From assembly GCF_002077945.1 (NCBI RefSeq), contig NZ_LVYD01000002.1, positions 434,001-498,000 of the forward strand: DNA of 64,000 nt, in the 5' to 3' direction. This document shows positions 4,791-63,685 of this stretch, piece by piece. The DNA is from Niastella vici. GTDB taxonomy: Bacteria > Bacteroidota > Bacteroidia > Chitinophagales > Chitinophagaceae. The first letter of the stretch is position 1. Each line of letters starts with the position of its first letter. The translations under genes were made by a program, and so were the position numbers. The notes under the pieces were generated by a model. That model was not told the DNA's origin and searched no databases. It was given only the letters and a program-made list of their open reading frames with translations.

Positions 4791-7700
4791 TTAATTGCTT
4801 TTTAGCAGATCCGGTGTGTTATTATCCCCTTTTCTTGCTTCCATATTTTTGACATATTCACTGGGTATTTTGCCATACTGTTTTTTAAATTCCCTGCTGA
4901 AATGCCGCCTGTCGTAAAACCCAACGGCAAAAGCTATTTCGTTAACTGTTTGATTGCCCTGCTGTAATAGCATGGCCGCTTTTTTAAGGCGGATGAATTT
5001 TACAAATTCATTCACCGACATACCTGTCACCGCTTTTATTTTTTTGTAAAGTATGGGGATACTCATAGCTACTTTTTTAGAAAGCAATTCTACGCCGAAT
5101 TCAGGATCGTCTATATGTTCTTCAATTATCAGAGCGATCTTTTCTAAAAATTCCTTATCTACTGTATTAACAATACTATCCCCAGCAGTTTTTACCAGCG
5201 GGCCTTCAGCCTGGTTTTCTTCAAGTATATGCCTGCTGAATTTCCGGCGCAACTTTTCTCTCGAAGCCAATAAATTCCTAACATTCAATTCCAGCACTTT
5301 TGTACTGAATGGTTTGGTAATGTAAACATCTGCGCCTGTTTCGAGGCCGGTTACCTGGTCGCTTTGAGTGCTTTTGGCAGTGAGTAATATCACGGGTATA
5401 TGACTGGTACGCTCATCTTTTTTTAATTTTTCGCACAATTCAAATCCATCCATCTCCGGCATCATTACATCACTGATGATAAGATCGGGAAGCTGTTCGG
5501 TAGCCGTTATCCATCCCTGCAACCCGTTTTCACATACCAACACATAATACTGAGAGATAAACGCCTGTTGAATCAATGCGCTGAGTTCCGGATTATCTTC
5601 TGCAATAAGAATGGTGTTCTTTTTATTCCCGGCTTCTTCGCACTGTTCAATAGCAACAGGAACGGTTACCGGCATTTCTTCCGTTTGCATCACAGGTTTG
5701 GCTTCTTCGGTAACAGGCAATAAATAATTCATTCCCTCAAAATGTGCATTACCCTGCAAAAGCGTTACCGTAAAAATGGTTTTACCCTCGCCTCCATTAG
5801 CAGCAGGCTCACTTTCTACTTCTATCTTTCCTTTGTGTAACTCCACAATATGTTTGGATAACGCAAGACCAATTCCATAACCGGTGTTTTGCATACCGTG
5901 ATCGGCTACCTGAAAAAAATTGGTAAATAGCTTATCAAGATATTGCGGTGCTATGCCCCTTCCATTATCTTTTACTGAAATGCTGACCGTTCTTTTATGC
6001 ATTTCTGTATGTAGGATGATCTGTCCGCCCGGAGGGGTGAATTTAAATGCATTGGTAAGCAGGTTAAAGAATACTTTTTCCAACTGTTCCCGGTCAAAAT
6101 AGAGCGGAATGTTTTCTGCATCATGGATAAAGGAGATTTTTATATCCCTGGCCAGGGACAGTTCCCGGAAACTTATATAAATTTCCTGTAGAAACGGAAT
6201 AAGGTCATAACGGCCGATATGTAGTTTTAAATGTTGCGTTTCAGCTTTCCGGAAATCCATTAGTTCGCTTACCAGTTTCAACAGGCGATTGGCGTTTGCT
6301 TTCACCTGTGTCAATTGCTGCTGCTCAAATTTGTCTTTCTTTTTTCGATGAAGCAGTTGATCTACCGGCGTTATGACAAGTGTCAGGTGCGTTCTTATTT
6401 CGTGCGAAATATTGGTGAAAAAATTCAGCTTTAACTGGTGCAGTTCATCTTCTTTCTTCAGCAACGCTCTCAGATAGAAAAACCTTGTTATAAAAAATAA
6501 GACGATAACCAATAGAATAGTATAGATACAGTAAGCCGGCCAGGTAAGCCAAAAAGGTGGAAGTATTTTTATTTCAATAGAGATGGGCTTGCTCCATATG
6601 CCATCATTGTTGGCTCCTTTTACCCAAAAAGTATAGTTTCCGGGCGACAGGTTGGTATAAACAGCCGATGGCGTACCTGTTTCGTTCCAGCCCCTGTCAA
6701 ATCCCTCCAGTTTGTAAGCATACCTGTTTTTGCTGCTCTTGATAAAATTCAACAGCGCAAACTCAATGGTAAATACGTTCTGGCGATGTTTGAATTCAAT
6801 TTTTTTGACAAATTCAATATTCTCTTTGATAAGCTTGTCACTGCCGGCTATTTCTATATTCTCATTGAATAATTTCAGCCCGGTAAAAACAAGTTTGGCG
6901 GCGTGTTTATTTGTCTCAATTTTATCAGGGAAAAAGCTGGTGATTCCATTTAGTCCGCCAAAGTAAAATTCTCCCTTACTGTTTTTCAGGTAAGAATTGT
7001 AATTGAACTCGTTTCCTGCTAATCCATCCCGTGTTGTATACGTTTGAACCGTGTTTTGCACCGGGTCAAACTTTATCAATCCTTTATTTGTACTTAACCA
7101 GAATTTTTCCCTGTCATCAACAAGTAATCCGAAAATATTGACATTCAACAATTCACCGGATGCCGTAAAACGGGTTATTTGTTTATCCCTGCTGTTATAG
7201 CTTGCAAGACCGCCAGATGCGAGACCAAACCAGATATTTCCTTTTCCATCGTCGAGGATACAGTTTACGGCAAGTGCGGCATCCATTACCCTTGCGTTAT
7301 TACCCGATGCCAGGTACAGGCCGTTTGCTGTTCCTATCCAGATATTATTGAAATGATCTTCATACAGGCTGTTTGCCACAAGGCCGGGGAATTGAATCGC
7401 ATTCACAGCATCCATAGGTTCCAGGGTTGTATTATTTTTCCGGAAAACCTGGATGCCCGTATGGGAAGCTACCCATAAGCGGCCTTTGCTGTCTTCCAAC
7501 ACTGAGCTTATTTCACTGATAAGCGTTGCCGGATCATTTTCTTTATACAAATACCGGGTAAATGTTTTTGTATTCCTGTCAAAAACATTCAGTCCTCCCC
7601 CGTGTGTGCCTACCCATGGATTACCGGCTTTATCGAGGTAAACAATTTTTACAAGATTGGAACCAAGACTTGCTTTATCACCGAGTTTATTTTTGTAAAT

Positions 7701-59167: not shown

Positions 59168-60004
59168 ATGACTATATTTGTTTTTACACTAATTCTTTTC
59201 ATCGCATCTGCATTTGCAGGATTAATTGGATCCCTTACCGGACTGGGTGGAGGTGTGGTTCTGATACCTTTGCTGACCCTTGTGTTTAAAATAAATATTC
59301 ATTATGCCATTGGCACTTCATTGATCAGTGTAATAGCCACCTCTTCAGGCGCTGCAGCAGCTTATGTAAAGGAAGGGATTACCAATATTCGCCTCGGCAT
59401 GTTCCTCGAATTGGCCACTACCTCAGGTGCAATAATAGGGGCAATGACAGCCACTTTTGTTTCCACCAGTTTTATTGCTGTTACTTTTGGTGTTATTCTT
59501 CTCGTGTCAGCCATTACCTCCTTCATGAGTATCGATGAAAAAATAGATTCCGGTGCAAAGGGAAAATTTGCCAGTTTTTTAAAACTAAATAATAGTTTTC
59601 CAACAGGGGACGGCATGCGGGACTATACAGTTAAAAATGTTGCAGGTGGTTTTTTGATGATGAATATTGCGGGAATTGTGAGTGGTTTACTTGGAATCGG
59701 GTCGGGTGCTCTAAAAGTGATTGCGATGGATAGGGTCATGAGAATCCCCTTTAAGGTATCCACCACTACCAGTAATTTTATGATAGGTGTAACCGCTGCG
59801 GCCAGCGCAGGCGTATATCTTAAACGTGGATATATCGATCCGGGCCTTTCTATGCCGGTGGTATTAGGCGTTTTATTGGGAGCACTGATTGGGTCAAGAA
59901 TATTATTCCGTGCCGAAACCCGAATACTCAAAGTGCTCTTCGCAATAGTGATATGTATTCTTGCCGCTGAAATGATCTATAACGGAATAAAAGGCACATT
60001 ATAA
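59168..60004 (+). CDS. TauE/SafE-family permease (sulfite exporter-like), first copy
   Basis: 278 residues, about eight membrane helices. Family motifs: FAGLIGSLTGLGGGVVLIPL near the N-terminus and the repeat GIVSGLLGIGSGALKVIAMD in the second half, with IHYAIGTSLISVIATSSGAA between. TauE/SafE proteins move sulfite, thiosulfate, sulfoacetate or sulfide-derived anions. It is followed 9 bp later by a DUF1634 gene, a frequent partner. No Crp-type palindrome is seen upstream, unlike the second copy. Confidence 0.9.
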   Translation: MTIFVFTLILFIASAFAGLIGSLTGLGGGVVLIPLLTLVFKINIHYAIGTSLISVIATSSGAAAAYVKEGITNIRLGMFLELATTSGAIIGAMTATFVSTSFIAVTFGVILLVSAITSFMSIDEKIDSGAKGKFASFLKLNNSFPTGDGMRDYTVKNVAGGFLMMNIAGIVSGLLGIGSGALKVIAMDRVMRIPFKVSTTTSNFMIGVTAAASAGVYLKRGYIDPGLSMPVVLGVLLGALIGSRILFRAETRILKVLFAIVICILAAEMIYNGIKGTL

Positions 60005-60013
60005 AGATAAAAC

Positions 60014-60385
60014 ATGGAAAAGAAAATGATAGACGACAAACGTATTGAAATAATTATGGGCAACCTGTTGAGGTTTGGGGTATTTTTGTCTGCATTGGTA
60101 GTATGTACCGGATCGTTCATCTACCTCTTTCAGCACGGAAGTGCAACACCCCAATATCGTACCTTTGAGGGTGAACCCAAAAGACTAACGGAATTACACT
60201 CCATTCTCACATCCGCCCTCAACGGCAGGGGAAGGTCAATTATTCAATTCGGGTTGCTGCTGCTGATCAGTACTCCCATTGTCCGGATCATCTTCTCCAT
60301 CATTGGTTTTATCATGGAACGCGATCTACTGTATGCTTTAATTACCCTCGTTGTTCTTGCAACGATTATGGTGGGCTTGTTTTAA
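60014..60385 (+). CDS. DUF1634 membrane protein
   Basis: 123 residues with three hydrophobic segments (LLRFGVFLSALVVCTGSFIY; IIQFGLLLLISTPIVRIIFS; LYALITLVVLATIMVGLF). DUF1634 genes are commonly adjacent to TauE/SafE permeases and are thought to assist them; there is no known biochemistry. Operonic with the preceding gene. Confidence 0.88.
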   Translation: MEKKMIDDKRIEIIMGNLLRFGVFLSALVVCTGSFIYLFQHGSATPQYRTFEGEPKRLTELHSILTSALNGRGRSIIQFGLLLLISTPIVRIIFSIIGFIMERDLLYALITLVVLATIMVGLF

Positions 60386-60434
60386 ATCCATAAAGATGGT
60401 CAAAAACCGGCAAGCGCAGCAGTGAACAATGGTC

Positions 60435-60446: not shown

Positions 60447-61094
60447 ATGACAAAACAGGAAATTAGCAGGCATTTCCCCAGCCTCGAAAAGGAACTGGTT
60501 GATGAAATGGTGGAAGTAGCAGATATTAAAACCTTTAAAGAGGGTGAAGTAGTATTGCGAACAGGACAAAATATCCGGTCTGCTATTCTGGTAATAGATG
60601 GACTGGTTAAGGTATACCGGGAAGACGAAGAAAGTTCAGAATTCTTTATGTACTACCTGGGCCCGGGTAAGGCATGCGCCATATCCCTCGTGTGTGCTTT
60701 GGGAAAAGGAACAAGCGGGCTCATGGCAAAGGCAACTACAGATGCAACTGTGATGTCTATACCGTTACCGTATGTTGATGACTGGATGGGTAAGTATAAA
60801 AGCTGGGCGCAGTTCGCTGTAAGTACCTATCGCGAAAGGTTTGAAGAACTTTTACAAACTATTGATCACGTTGCTTTCAGAAACATGGACGAGCGGCTTT
60901 TGTTTTATCTCAAAAGGCACCAGGAAAAATTTAAAACCAATATCGTTTCTATCTCATATACCGAAATTGCGCAGGACCTCAATTCATCCCGGGAAGTTAT
61001 CTCAAGACTTATGAAAAAATTAGCAGAAAGAGGAATGATTAAACAACGCCGCTCAGAAGTTGAAATCATTGATTTGGGGAAAGCGTTGACGTGA
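60447..61094 (+). CDS. Crp/Fnr-family transcriptional regulator
   Basis: 215 residues from the ATG at 60447 (an ATG at 60429 adds six residues). Cyclic-nucleotide-binding-like beta-roll at about 10-125, dimer helix about 125-150, and winged HTH at about 165-205. The recognition helix NSSREVISRLMKKL has Arg182, Glu183 and Arg187 in the R-E-x3-R spacing that reads GTGA half-sites in E. coli CRP. Four GTGA-N6-TCAC palindromes lie in the next 2.1 kb, the first overlapping the end of this gene. The sensor domain lacks the cAMP-binding RS motif and has Cys76 and Cys83. Predicted activator of the sulfur cluster. Confidence 0.92.
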   Translation: MTKQEISRHFPSLEKELVDEMVEVADIKTFKEGEVVLRTGQNIRSAILVIDGLVKVYREDEESSEFFMYYLGPGKACAISLVCALGKGTSGLMAKATTDATVMSIPLPYVDDWMGKYKSWAQFAVSTYRERFEELLQTIDHVAFRNMDERLLFYLKRHQEKFKTNIVSISYTEIAQDLNSSREVISRLMKKLAERGMIKQRRSEVEIIDLGKALT

Positions 61095-61104
61095 CCAAAA
61101 TCAC
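61091..61104 (+). promoter_or_regulatory. Crp/Fnr palindrome 1 (second TauE/SafE gene)
   Basis: GTGACCAAAATCAC (with flanks ACGTGA...TCACGT). Centre 61097.5. The -7 element CAGCTTTG at 61127-61134 has its TTTG core starting 33.5 bp from the centre. The gene starts at 61152. Confidence 0.8.
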
Positions 61105-61151
61105 GTTTTACTATGCTGACATGACCCAGCTTTGCATGCAATATAAATTGC

Positions 61152-61949
61152 ATGGAAATTTTCGGATATATAGCTGCTCTCCTGATTGGCATTTCGCTTG
61201 GGTTGATCGGCGGTGGCGGATCTATACTTACTGTTCCCGTTATGGTGTACCTGTTTGGATTACAGCCCCTGGTTGCTATGTCTTATTCGCTTTTCATTGT
61301 TGGTTCCACCAGTATTGTCGGTGCTGTCAGCAATTACAGAAAAGGACTGGTCAATGTAAAAGCAGCAATCTTTTTTGGCGCTTCATCTATAGCCACCGTC
61401 TTCCTCGTTAGGAAATATATTGTACCTGCCTTACCCAACACTATTTTAAAAATCGGGGGATTTCCTATTACGTCATCATTTATTTTGATGCTCCTCTTTG
61501 CTTTACTCATGCTGTTCGCTTCTGTAAGCATGATCCGTAAGCCCAAACAGCATTTTAAAGAAAAGGAAAATAAATCATCTATCCACTTTTTCGGGTTTAT
61601 TGGTTATGGTATCATGATAGGGCTCATTACCGGATTACTTGGCGCAGGCGGTGGCTTCCTACTCATTCCAACACTCGTTTTTTTGATTGGGCTTTCTATG
61701 AAAAAAGCCATTGGCACATCTCTGTTTATCATCGCTTTAAATTCTTTAATAGGCTTCCTTGGGGACCTTGGACATATTTCGATCAACTGGGTCTTTTTAC
61801 TGAAGGTAACCGGTATTGCTATTGCCGGTATATTGATAGGCGGCGCATTTAGTAAAAAAATAAAAAGTGAAAATCTAAAGAAAGGATTTGGATGGTTCAT
61901 CCTTATTATGGGGGTTATCATAATTGTTAAAGAAATTTTCTCCAGCTGA
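61152..61949 (+). CDS. TauE/SafE-family permease, second copy
   Basis: 265 residues, about eight helices. Motifs GISLGLIGGGGSILTVPVMV and GLITGLLGAGGGFLLIPTLV mark the two family repeats; KKAIGTSLFIIALNSLIGFL follows. The hydrophilic centre (MIRKPKQHFKEKENKSS) is the usual loop. It diverges clearly from the copy at 59168. Directly downstream of palindrome 1, with a predicted leader of about 11 bases. Likely exports sulfite, thiosulfate or a related anion produced during sulfide or persulfide detoxification. Confidence 0.9.
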   Translation: MEIFGYIAALLIGISLGLIGGGGSILTVPVMVYLFGLQPLVAMSYSLFIVGSTSIVGAVSNYRKGLVNVKAAIFFGASSIATVFLVRKYIVPALPNTILKIGGFPITSSFILMLLFALLMLFASVSMIRKPKQHFKEKENKSSIHFFGFIGYGIMIGLITGLLGAGGGFLLIPTLVFLIGLSMKKAIGTSLFIIALNSLIGFLGDLGHISINWVFLLKVTGIAIAGILIGGAFSKKIKSENLKKGFGWFILIMGVIIIVKEIFSS

Positions 61950-61959
61950 TCTTTTATGT

Positions 61960-61973
61960 GTGACCCAGATCAC
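61960..61973 (+). promoter_or_regulatory. Crp/Fnr palindrome 2 (rhodanese genes)
   Basis: GTGACCCAGATCAC, centre 61966.5. TTTG of GAGATTTG (61996-62003) starts 33.5 bp from the centre. The first intact gene downstream is the rhodanese at 62142; a rhodanese remnant lies between. Confidence 0.75.
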
Positions 61974-61988
61974 GATGTTTATAGTTGA

Positions 61989-62099
61989 TTAATCAGAGAT
62001 TTGCATCAGTATCTCCATACCTTAAACGAACACCTGGCTTCAGTGGATAAAAATGAAACTTATTATGTGTATTGCGCAAGTGGCTATCGCTACCAGTAA
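61989..62099 (+). pseudogene. Rhodanese C-terminal remnant
   Basis: The frame reads LNEHLASVDKNETYYVYC, then ASGYRYQ and a stop. It includes the rhodanese active-site loop (C-x2-G-x-R), which in intact proteins is followed by a further helix and strand. There is no start codon in a sensible place, and an in-frame stop at 61986 cuts it from anything upstream. It is the leftover of a larger rhodanese-containing gene, perhaps a persulfide dioxygenase or multi-rhodanese protein, lost between the permease and the present rhodanese. Confidence 0.65.
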
Positions 62100-62141
62100 C
62101 AGATAAGCAGATTTCTTACAATAATTAAAATAATTCAACTT

Positions 62142-62456
62142 ATGATATCCTTAATAAAACAATTATTCGGTTCTAAAACAGACCTGGAAATGATATTGAA
62201 AAATGGAGCTGTCATCCTGGATGTGCGAACGAAAAATGAATATGATGCCGGCCATATCCAGCATTCCAGGCATGTGCCACTTGATATTATCAGACAACAA
62301 CTAAATCAGCTGAAAAAATTAAACAAACCAATAATTACCGTTTGCAGAAGCGGCAGCCGTAGTGCTATTGCAAAAAGCCTGTTGCAAAATGCCGGCATAG
62401 AGGCATATAACGGCGGTTCATGGATCACATTCAAAAATAAATACGGAATAAAATGA
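62142..62456 (+). CDS. Single-domain rhodanese (sulfurtransferase)
   Basis: 104 residues, cytoplasmic, no signal. ILDVRTKNEYDAGHI and the active-site loop TVCRSGSRSAIA with catalytic Cys about 70; the C-terminal NGGSWITFKNKYG segment is typical of the GlpE/PspE-like group. It moves sulfane sulfur from thiosulfate or persulfides to thiols. Its stop overlaps the start of the next gene (ATGA at 62453), so the pair is translated together, matching the two halves of E. coli YgaP. Confidence 0.92.
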   Translation: MISLIKQLFGSKTDLEMILKNGAVILDVRTKNEYDAGHIQHSRHVPLDIIRQQLNQLKKLNKPIITVCRSGSRSAIAKSLLQNAGIEAYNGGSWITFKNKYGIK

Positions 62457-62683
62457 TAGCATACTTTAAGAGGTGGACGTTTTTCCGCTGGGTTAGGCTA
62501 ATTATGGGAATTGCAATTTTTATCCGGGGTGTATCAACCGGTGAATACCTCCTTTACCTGGCCGGTGCTTTTGTAACATTTATGGCTTTTGCCAATGCAG
62601 GATGCGGCATTGAGGGATGCGCAACAAATGTCAGGCTGCCTAAAAGCAAAATATATCATGATGGTAATGTTGATAAGAAATAA
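62453..62683 (+). CDS. Small two-helix membrane protein (DUF2892/YgaP C-terminal-like)
   Basis: 76 residues. Two hydrophobic segments (VRLIMGIAIFIRGVS; EYLLYLAGAFVTFMAFANAG) followed by CGIEGCATN, a Cys pair typical of Bacteroidota members. In YgaP this unit is fused to a rhodanese domain; here it is a separate gene overlapping the rhodanese gene by four bases. It probably recruits the rhodanese to the inner membrane. Confidence 0.82.
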   Translation: MIAYFKRWTFFRWVRLIMGIAIFIRGVSTGEYLLYLAGAFVTFMAFANAGCGIEGCATNVRLPKSKIYHDGNVDKK

Positions 62684-62706
62684 ATTGTTTCTGGCAAATC
62701 AAAGAA

Positions 62707-62732
62707 AAACCCCGACGGCGCCGTCGGGGTTT
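62707..62732. terminator. Bidirectional rho-independent terminator
   Basis: A perfect 26-bp palindrome (AAACCCCGACGGC / GCCGTCGGGGTTT) between convergent genes, with T-rich flank on the plus strand (TTTCTTT) and A-rich flank on the other (AAAGAAAAA). It serves both the rhodanese operon and the thioredoxin gene. Confidence 0.92.
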
Positions 62733-62734
62733 CT

Positions 62735-63106
62735 TTATTGCTGCGGATCTTTTTGCAATAATCGTTCTTCAATTACCTGTTGAAATACTTTTTTCGATAA
62801 CGCTCCCGGTTGCATTACAGGGATTCCTTCCACCGGGATAAAAAGAAATGTTGGAATACTTTGGATACCGAATACAGCGGCAAGTTCCTGCTCCGTTTCA
62901 GTATTGACCTTGTAAATTAATAACTGCCCTTCAAATTGTTTGGACAGATCTTCCAACACAGGAGCCACCATCTTACAGGGGCCACACCAATCGGCATAGA
63001 AATCGATCATAGCCGGAATCTTTCCCTTGTATTTCCAGTCCTTTTCTACTTCATAGTTGAAAACTTTATCTTTAAAATCCTGCGTTGTCATTTGTATTGT
63101 CGCCAT
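62735..63106 (-). CDS. Thioredoxin
   Basis: 123 residues, no signal peptide. The active site is FYADWCGPCKMVAPVLEDL; cis-Pro region IQSIPTFLFIPVEG. The N-terminal 30 residues are a little longer than E. coli TrxA and the C-terminal tail is polar. It is a cytoplasmic disulfide reductase and would also reduce persulfides on the rhodanese. Transcribed from palindrome 3, divergent from the DUF302 gene. Leader of about 11 bases predicted. Confidence 0.93.
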   Translation of the reverse strand: MATIQMTTQDFKDKVFNYEVEKDWKYKGKIPAMIDFYADWCGPCKMVAPVLEDLSKQFEGQLLIYKVNTETEQELAAVFGIQSIPTFLFIPVEGIPVMQPGALSKKVFQQVIEERLLQKDPQQ

Positions 63107-63153
63107 GTTTAAATTGTTTACTCCAAAGCTACTTTCTGCTGTTTCTCTGATTC

Positions 63154-63167
63154 GTGATATGAGTCAC
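63154..63167 (-). promoter_or_regulatory. Crp/Fnr palindrome 3 (thioredoxin)
   Basis: GTGATATGAGTCAC, centre 63160.5. On the minus strand TAGCTTTG (63124-63131) is a perfect -7 element whose TTTG core starts 33.5 bp from the centre. Confidence 0.82.
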
Positions 63168-63201
63168 ACTAAAAGCTCAAACCAAATCAAGGTAGCCAGA
63201 A

Positions 63202-63215
63202 GTGATAAAAGTCAC
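63202..63215 (+). promoter_or_regulatory. Crp/Fnr palindrome 4 (DUF302 gene)
   Basis: GTGATAAAAGTCAC, centre 63208.5. TATGTTTG (63238-63245) is a perfect -7 element with its TTTG core 33.5 bp from the centre. The gene starts at 63299, giving a leader of about 47 bases. Confidence 0.82.
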
Positions 63216-63298
63216 GACTGAAGCAACGGCATACATTTATGTTTGGTTTTTAATCATTACATCTAATCGTCCGGAAACCGGGCTTTAAAATCATAATT

Positions 63299-63685
63299 AT
63301 GAATTACAACATTAGCAAAAAGCTACAAATAAGTTTTCAGGAAGCTATCAATAAGGTAACAGACGAATTAAAGAAAGAAGGGTTCGGGATCATTACCGAA
63401 ATTGATCTAAAAGAAAAATTTAAAGAAAAAATAGGAGTTGATTTCAGGAGATATACAATTCTGGGCGCCTGTAATCCGAAACTTGCCTATGAAGCTGTGC
63501 AACTGGAAGATAAAATCGGCGTGATGCTGCCATGCAACATCCTGGTACAGGAACATGAAAACGGCGGGGTAGAAGTGTCAGCAATCAACCCAATGAACGC
63601 TATGGACGTTGTGAATAACGAGCGCCTATCATTACTTGCCAACGAAATCGGCCAAAAGCTACAAAAAGTAATAGCTAATATTTAA
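63299..63685 (+). CDS. DUF302 protein
   Basis: 128 residues, cytoplasmic. The whole chain fits DUF302: ISFQEAINKVTDELKKEGFG, EKIGVDFRRYTILGACNPKL, GVMLPCNILVQEHENGGVEV, AINPMNAMDVVNNERL. The two conserved Cys (GACNP and LPCN) are present. DUF302 proteins are widely found in sulfur-oxidation and sulfide-stress clusters; no proven reaction. Under palindrome 4. Confidence 0.92.
   Translation: MNYNISKKLQISFQEAINKVTDELKKEGFGIITEIDLKEKFKEKIGVDFRRYTILGACNPKLAYEAVQLEDKIGVMLPCNILVQEHENGGVEVSAINPMNAMDVVNNERLSLLANEIGQKLQKVIANI

Follow-up and report, generated by a model that had tools for sequence, protein, structure and literature searches.

The analysed window is a stretch of 64,000 nucleotides from Niastella vici (Bacteroidota; contig NZ_LVYD01000002.1). 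Towards its right end lies a gene for a Crp/Fnr-type regulator, accompanied by genes for a TauE/SafE permease, a rhodanese, a small membrane protein, a thioredoxin and a DUF302 protein (Table 1). The palindrome GTGA-N6-TCAC is present at positions 61091, 61960, 63154 and 63202, exactly as a preliminary description of this DNA had claimed. The same description had placed the first T of a TTTG core 33.5 bp from the centre of each palindrome, and this distance was found at all four (61131, 62000, 63127 on the minus strand, and 63242). TTTG thus begins after a gap of 26 bp downstream of every palindrome, its first T being 40 bases after the first G of the palindrome. A fifth palindrome in the window, at 5380, was dropped as a site because TTTG is missing at gap 26; 0.57 palindromes would be expected by chance in the window.

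The fixed spacing is conserved among relatives of the regulator. A search of 294 genomes of the family gave 139 genomes with a match at E <= 1e-40. For comparison, 61 regulator loci were used, i.e. the window and 60 relatives chosen from the listed matches, largely those near the top after manual thinning. These loci contain 98 palindromes. Of these, 51 have TTTG at gap 26; between 0 and 46, every other gap accounts for three cases at most. The other palindromes have a different TT[TC][AG] core at gap 26 (22), an off-by-one or degenerate core (7) or none (18). A palindrome is present in 51 of the 61 loci, and one with TTTG at gap 26 in 32. Over the 294 genomes the full pattern gave 270 sites, compared to 14 for the reversed pattern.

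The genome of N. vici alone shows clustering of sites and no large excess. In its 10.06 Mb the palindrome occurs 118 times, against 82 for a reversed-pattern control. When TTTG is required at any gap from 11 to 41, 52 matches remain (control 35), and five of these are at gap 26: the four window sites and C58:487738. Many unrelated sites of the same geometry, named in the preliminary description as contrary evidence, were not found; there is one further exact site in 10 Mb. Four additional matches appear when one mismatch is allowed. They are not claimed as targets; the pattern (five exact matches, four with one mismatch) and the control then give equal counts (9 and 9). The mild enrichment of the palindrome alone could be taken to mean that the arrangement in the window is a chance coincidence or a spurious motif. 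This explanation is refuted by the comparative counts at gap 26 and over the 294 genomes, and its probability is negligible; the earlier judgement that such a coincidence of spacing was unlikely by chance was borne out by the 51 cases against at most three. The same mild enrichment makes a global cAMP-CRP regulon unlikely. The fifth exact site (C58:487738-487781, L156) lies, judged by eye, at the 3' end of an apparent Crp/Fnr-like gene and before an alpha/beta hydrolase-like open reading frame. Its layout matches that of site 1, which may be chance.

The 51 promoters have the consensus GTGAY-N4-RTCAC, N22, a non-A base, A, two free bases and TTTG. The A three bases before TTTG was not a selection criterion and is present in 50 of 51; a C follows TTTG in 30. 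A T precedes the conserved A in just 14 promoters, and no conservation was seen at the usual -33 place of the 51 aligned sequences. In the available text of a start-site map of Flavobacterium psychrophilum, the element TAnnTTTG is located at -12 to -5 (PMC9723704). Because of this mapped position, the conserved A was assigned to -11, the first T of TTTG to -8 and the palindrome centre to -41.5, which is the position of a class II activator site. The predicted +1 coincides with the chosen start codon in seven of the 51 promoters (L101, L112, L116, L119, L138, L140 and L147), which suggests leaderless mRNAs. The conserved spacing across the 61 loci supports the class II geometry put forward earlier for the window, and by comparative evidence the predicted class II regulon is real. 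A protein bound at -41.5 might instead be a repressor, which blocks the polymerase until sulfur releases it. This would be like CstR and SqrR, sulfane-sulfur regulators that repress according to the available text of PMC9774590. We consider it improbable, as spacing fixed to the base pair, a lost -33 element and a weak T at -12 fit activation, and operators of repressors would usually not be kept at one spacing.

The arrangement extends outside the family. Among 247 genomes of the phylum that were searched, 81 contain a regulator match at 1e-30; 40 matches were fetched from outside the family, and 40 more divergent ones came from the family and phylum lists. With one mismatch allowed, the 40 loci outside the family have 23 sites at the exact spacing, compared to at most three at any of 20 shifts, and their half-sites have drifted. 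In relatives from one other family (L190-L202) we noticed half-drifted sites that pair GTGA with TTAC, or GTAA with TCAC, without a change in spacing.

The presence of the regulator and of the sites is correlated. Of the 139 genomes with the regulator, 100 have a full-pattern promoter, compared to 31 of the 155 without it (Fisher 1.5e-19, kinship not corrected). Here, a more distant relative may be present in genomes that gave no match at 1e-40, and among the 139 some have only the kind of regulator with valine at residue 183 (see below). In 42 of 61 loci the palindrome lies within -60 to +400 of the end of the regulator match. Conservation, co-occurrence and the match between residue 183 and the third half-site base support a regulator of this type as the predicted binder. 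The claim that this binder is locally encoded is likely to hold, although not exclusively, since a second regulator of the same type is encoded elsewhere in the genome. At E <= 1e-40 the genome has two matches, the window regulator and a paralogue at C1:386837, which is 58% identical and has the same REVISR helix and the same cysteine cassette. The sites could thus be used mainly by this paralogue, or by another Crp/Fnr protein such as L017 with its RETTVR motif, and the neighbouring regulator would then be minor. We regard this as unlikely, because a regulator of this type stands directly upstream of the palindrome in those 42 loci and the paralogue has a site of its own. Its locus (L107) consists of the regulator, a palindrome with a weaker TTCA core, TauE, MBL-rhodanese and YeeE. 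In three other loci the regulator gene is itself closely preceded by a site, which has TTTG at gap 26 in L213 and is a bare palindrome in L204 and L205; self-regulation is possible there.

Further support for a link between regulator and site comes from the recognition helix, for which the proposed R182-E183-x3-R187 was confirmed as R182-E183-V-I-S-R187. Arg182 and Arg187 are present in all 141 regulators, which are of two kinds, with Glu183 (100) or Val183 (41). At Glu183 loci, TTTG at gap 26 follows GTGA/TCAC 55 times (at most four at another gap) and GTAA/TTAC once. At Val183 loci the corresponding numbers are 2 and 22, the latter with at most three at another gap. When TTTG or TTTA cores are counted, which occur in 67 of 100 Glu183 and 20 of 41 Val183 loci, the third half-site base is G in 161 and A in 37 cases for Glu183, and G in 5 and A in 47 for Val183. 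Palindromes with TTGA (FNR-like), GTCA, GTTA, ATGA or CTGA half-sites gave at most two matches at gap 26 in either group. Relatives with Val at 183 mostly use GTAA-N6-TTAC, which ties the regulator to the site, although independent switches are too few to reach significance; one Val183 locus (L267) has GTGA. The equivalent residues of E. coli CRP are Arg180, Glu181 and Arg185, and Arg185 and Glu181 read that base pair, as stated in the available text of PMC11253593. The tree of the regulators needs at least three changes of the Glu/Val label. Classic specificity mutants of CAP at Glu181 reportedly prefer A:T at this position, and the pairing of Glu-to-Val with GTGA-to-GTAA is said to be the same swap.

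The genes behind the sites are, by their predicted domains, mostly sulfide/persulfide genes. First genes behind the 51 promoters encode TauE (17), a rhodanese domain (15), MBL (10), an outer-membrane efflux protein (OEP, 4), sulfur transport (4), Pyr_redox (2), DUF302 (2), thioredoxin (2), OsmC (2) and ClC (1); these domains overlap, and MBL and rhodanese are often in one protein. Among the 80 loci collected later, a gene of the query set (once the regulator) follows 21 of 32 Glu183 sites, and a sulfur-set gene or OEP follows 15 of 26 Val183 sites. TauE, rhodanese, MBL-rhodanese and SQR recur beside regulator and sites in varying subsets of the 61 loci. The MBL-rhodanese resembles 3tp9 and 3r2u, the latter of which we take to be CstB of S. 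aureus. The two pyridine nucleotide-disulfide oxidoreductases (Pyr_redox) gave matches under the cut-off, one to a type III SQR model and the other to a CoA-disulfide reductase model. This recurrence of sulfide/persulfide genes supports the predicted sulfur regulon.

In the window, site 1 precedes TauE, while sites 3 and 4 face away from each other, towards thioredoxin and DUF302, the same arrangement as in L098 of the same genus. The genes assigned to the sites in the preliminary description stand for TauE, thioredoxin and DUF302. Site 2 has probably lost its first gene. Its promoter now leads to the rhodanese and membrane-protein pair, the core being 139 bp away from the rhodanese start codon, and a relic of 26 codons begins at most 10 bases after TTTG. 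In L098 a second palindrome with a TTTA core is followed by MBL-rhodanese, rhodanese and membrane protein, and an intact MBL-rhodanese occupies the place of the relic in relatives and at the second locus of the genome. The relic is probably what remains of an MBL-rhodanese gene that site 2 once drove. The window locus has no intact MBL-rhodanese or SQR; since L107 has an MBL-rhodanese, this gene type exists elsewhere in the genome.

Table 1. Regulator, predicted sites and neighbouring genes in the window
Feature	Coordinates	Strand	Basis or remark
Crp/Fnr-type regulator, 215 residues, two cysteines	60447..61094	+	cNMP_binding and HTH_Crp_2 domains
Cys77-Ala-x-Ser-x-x-Cys83 cassette	60675..60695	+	proposed thiol/persulfide sensor; cysteine conservation
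Recognition helix R182-E183-V-I-S-R187	60990..61007	+	R182, E183 and R187 in 61/61 loci of the family set
Site 1, GTGACCAAAATCAC	61091..61104	+	overlaps the regulator stop codon
-7 element of site 1, CAGCTTTG	61127..61134	+	A at -11; sequence, aligned with 50 other sites
TauE/SafE permease	61152..61949	+	PF01925, 138.7 bits
Site 2, GTGACCCAGATCAC	61960..61973	+	second palindrome precedes MBL-rhodanese in many relatives
-7 element of site 2, GAGATTTG	61996..62003	+	sequence, promoter alignment
Relic, C-terminal rhodanese domain of a probably lost MBL-rhodanese gene	62013..62090	+	14/26 identical to residues 403-428 of the L099 protein
Rhodanese, 104 residues	62142..62456	+	PF00581, 59.4 bits
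Membrane protein, 76 residues, perhaps YgaP-like transmembrane	62453..62683	+	no Pfam match at 0.001; PF11127 E=0.11, below cut-off
Thioredoxin	62735..63106	-	PF00085, 82.4 bits
-7 element of site 3, TAGCTTTG	63124..63131	-	sequence, promoter alignment
Site 3, GTGACTCATATCAC	63154..63167	-	for thioredoxin; divergent pair also in L098
Site 4, GTGATAAAAGTCAC	63202..63215	+	for DUF302; divergent pair also in L098
-7 element of site 4, TATGTTTG	63238..63245	+	sequence, promoter alignment
DUF302 protein	63299..63685	+	PF03625, 90.1 bits

Two further features were noticed at the locus. Just upstream of the regulator, 59168-60385 encodes a second TauE and a DUF1634 protein, with no GTGA-N6-TCAC before them. 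Between the convergent membrane-protein and thioredoxin genes, a GC-rich hairpin with T/A runs (62700-62735) looks by eye like a two-way terminator.

The regulator belongs to the Crp/Fnr superfamily by both of its domains (PF00027, 36.6 bits; PF13545, 41.1 bits; both over cut-off). With 40.2 bits against a cut-off of 266 for the NCBIfam CRP equivalog PRK11753, it scores far too low to be counted as cAMP-CRP. FNR-type N-terminal cluster cysteines are lacking, Cys77 and Cys83 being the sole cysteines in the 215-residue translation; a start codon further upstream in the same frame, at 60429, would bring in a third. Cys77 is conserved in 141 of 141 regulators and Cys83 in 127, and 53 have a cysteine at 84. 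The genome has 18 HTH_Crp_2 matches. Nine were aligned, two with and seven without the cassette, and the cassette's two-residue insertion that carries Cys77 is absent from the other seven. Within the same class II regulon, Cys77 and Cys83 might sense general oxidation, nitric oxide, a metal or a cluster, the sulfur genes being one output among others. Some targets are indeed general thiol or efflux genes (OsmC, TolC-like OEP, ClC), and cysteine sensors can answer several signals; OxyR and OhrR also sense sulfane sulfur (available text of PMC9774590). The targets that recur both in and outside the family are nevertheless sulfide/persulfide genes, and there are no cysteines in the first 76 residues, the place of FNR-type cluster ligands. 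A different signal of this kind is possible, and we hold it to be less likely than sulfane sulfur.

Taken together, we propose that the 215-residue protein is a thiol-type Crp/Fnr activator of a Bacteroidota cst-like persulfide regulon, with a probability of about 0.72. Our best inference is that this regulon is activated and answers to sulfane sulfur via Cys77 and Cys83. Reactive (sulfane) sulfur would modify these cysteines beside the former cyclic-nucleotide pocket. The modified dimer would bind GTGAY-N4-RTCAC centred at -41.5, covering the position at which the -33 element is missing. As a class II activator it would then bring RNA polymerase to a -7 element of the Bacteroidota type that is weakened (NAnnTTTG). 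As a result TauE, rhodanese and membrane protein, thioredoxin and DUF302 would be switched on, as a set for sulfide/persulfide detoxification and export. The sites, their spacing, the link between regulator and sites and the predicted target genes are supported by comparison of sequences. Positive control, the polymerase contacts, the sulfur signal and the role of the cysteines are what we infer. For a broader proposal we see the chances as evenly divided. It states that the protein represents a widespread class of Bacteroidota Crp/Fnr activators in which the cyclic-nucleotide pocket became a cysteine (persulfide) switch (C-A-x-S/T-x-x-C), sulfide/persulfide genes are run from sites at -41.5, and a natural Glu-to-Val helix change is paired with GTGA-to-GTAA.

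Several observations weigh against this interpretation. In the own genome the full pattern with A at -11 gave five matches and the control two. Ten of the 61 loci have no palindrome, 29 have no TTTG at gap 26, and 18 of the 98 palindromes are without a recognisable core there. No exact site was found in 39 of 139 regulator genomes (some of these regulators being of the Val183 kind), and the 31 of 155 genomes without a regulator match do have one. To these come the paralogue with the same helix and L017 with RExxxR. Independent Glu/Val pairs number two on supported branches and three on all branches; because just two independent supported pairs carry sites, the correlation between Glu/Val and site is not significant after kinship correction. 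Moreover, the Val183 clade contains seven Glu183 loci, which have GTGA (2), GTAA (2), mixed sites (2) or no site (1). Fourteen of the 141 regulators have another residue in place of Cys83 (Ser in L064 and L065), and a dithiol mechanism therefore cannot be universal. AlphaFold2 on the window, L064 and L065 sequences gave a poor model with a mean pLDDT of 58.5, and for this reason no Cys77-Cys83 distance is claimed.

If the proposal is true, it describes a sulfur-stress regulator for Bacteroidota and a clear class II promoter rule for the unusual -7 element of this phylum. It would also provide a possible part for a polysulfide biosensor and a natural test case in which recognition helix and sites change together. 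The sulfane-sulfur regulators named in the available text of the review PMC9774590 are CstR, SqrR, BigR, PigS, FisR, OxyR, LasR and OhrR, with no Crp/Fnr protein among them; no word beginning with Bacteroid- occurs in that text. Titles and abstract beginnings mention no Crp/Fnr sulfur regulon in Bacteroidota, which is weak evidence of absence as only open-licence PMC texts were covered. The parts of the system are of known kinds, and a Crp/Fnr protein with a cysteine cassette over a cst-like Bacteroidota gene set is absent from the titles and abstract beginnings of the literature searched.

In E. coli, class II CRP-dependent promoters have the site centred at -41.5. The system described here is alike in that the activator would lie over the -35/-33 place; it differs in its -7 element, TAnnTTTG and not TATAAT, and in the cassette with two cysteines. 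The predicted reading of GTGA-N6-TCAC by R-E-x3-R is likewise shared with CRP (available text of PMC11253593). FNR has the Crp/Fnr fold and the class II activation proposed here in common with the window regulator, whereas the latter has no N-terminal cluster cysteines and its predicted half-site is GTGA instead of TTGA. The closest solved chain is PDB 3dv8 ('transcriptional regulator, Crp/Fnr family'; E 2.6e-13, just 53 bits), which has cysteines aligned with Cys77 and Cys83. The cst operon of S. aureus has persulfide detoxification genes of the same kinds as the present system (TauE, rhodanese, MBL-rhodanese, SQR), and its regulator CstR also has two cysteines. According to the available text of PMC9774590, FisR of Cupriavidus pinatubonensis and SqrR/BigR are likewise cysteine-based sulfane-sulfur regulators of sulfide-oxidation genes. 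These proteins belong to families other than Crp/Fnr: FisR is a sigma54 activator, SqrR and BigR are ArsR repressors and CstR is a CsoR-type repressor (same text), whereas the regulator adjacent to the sites here is a Crp/Fnr protein and most likely an activator.

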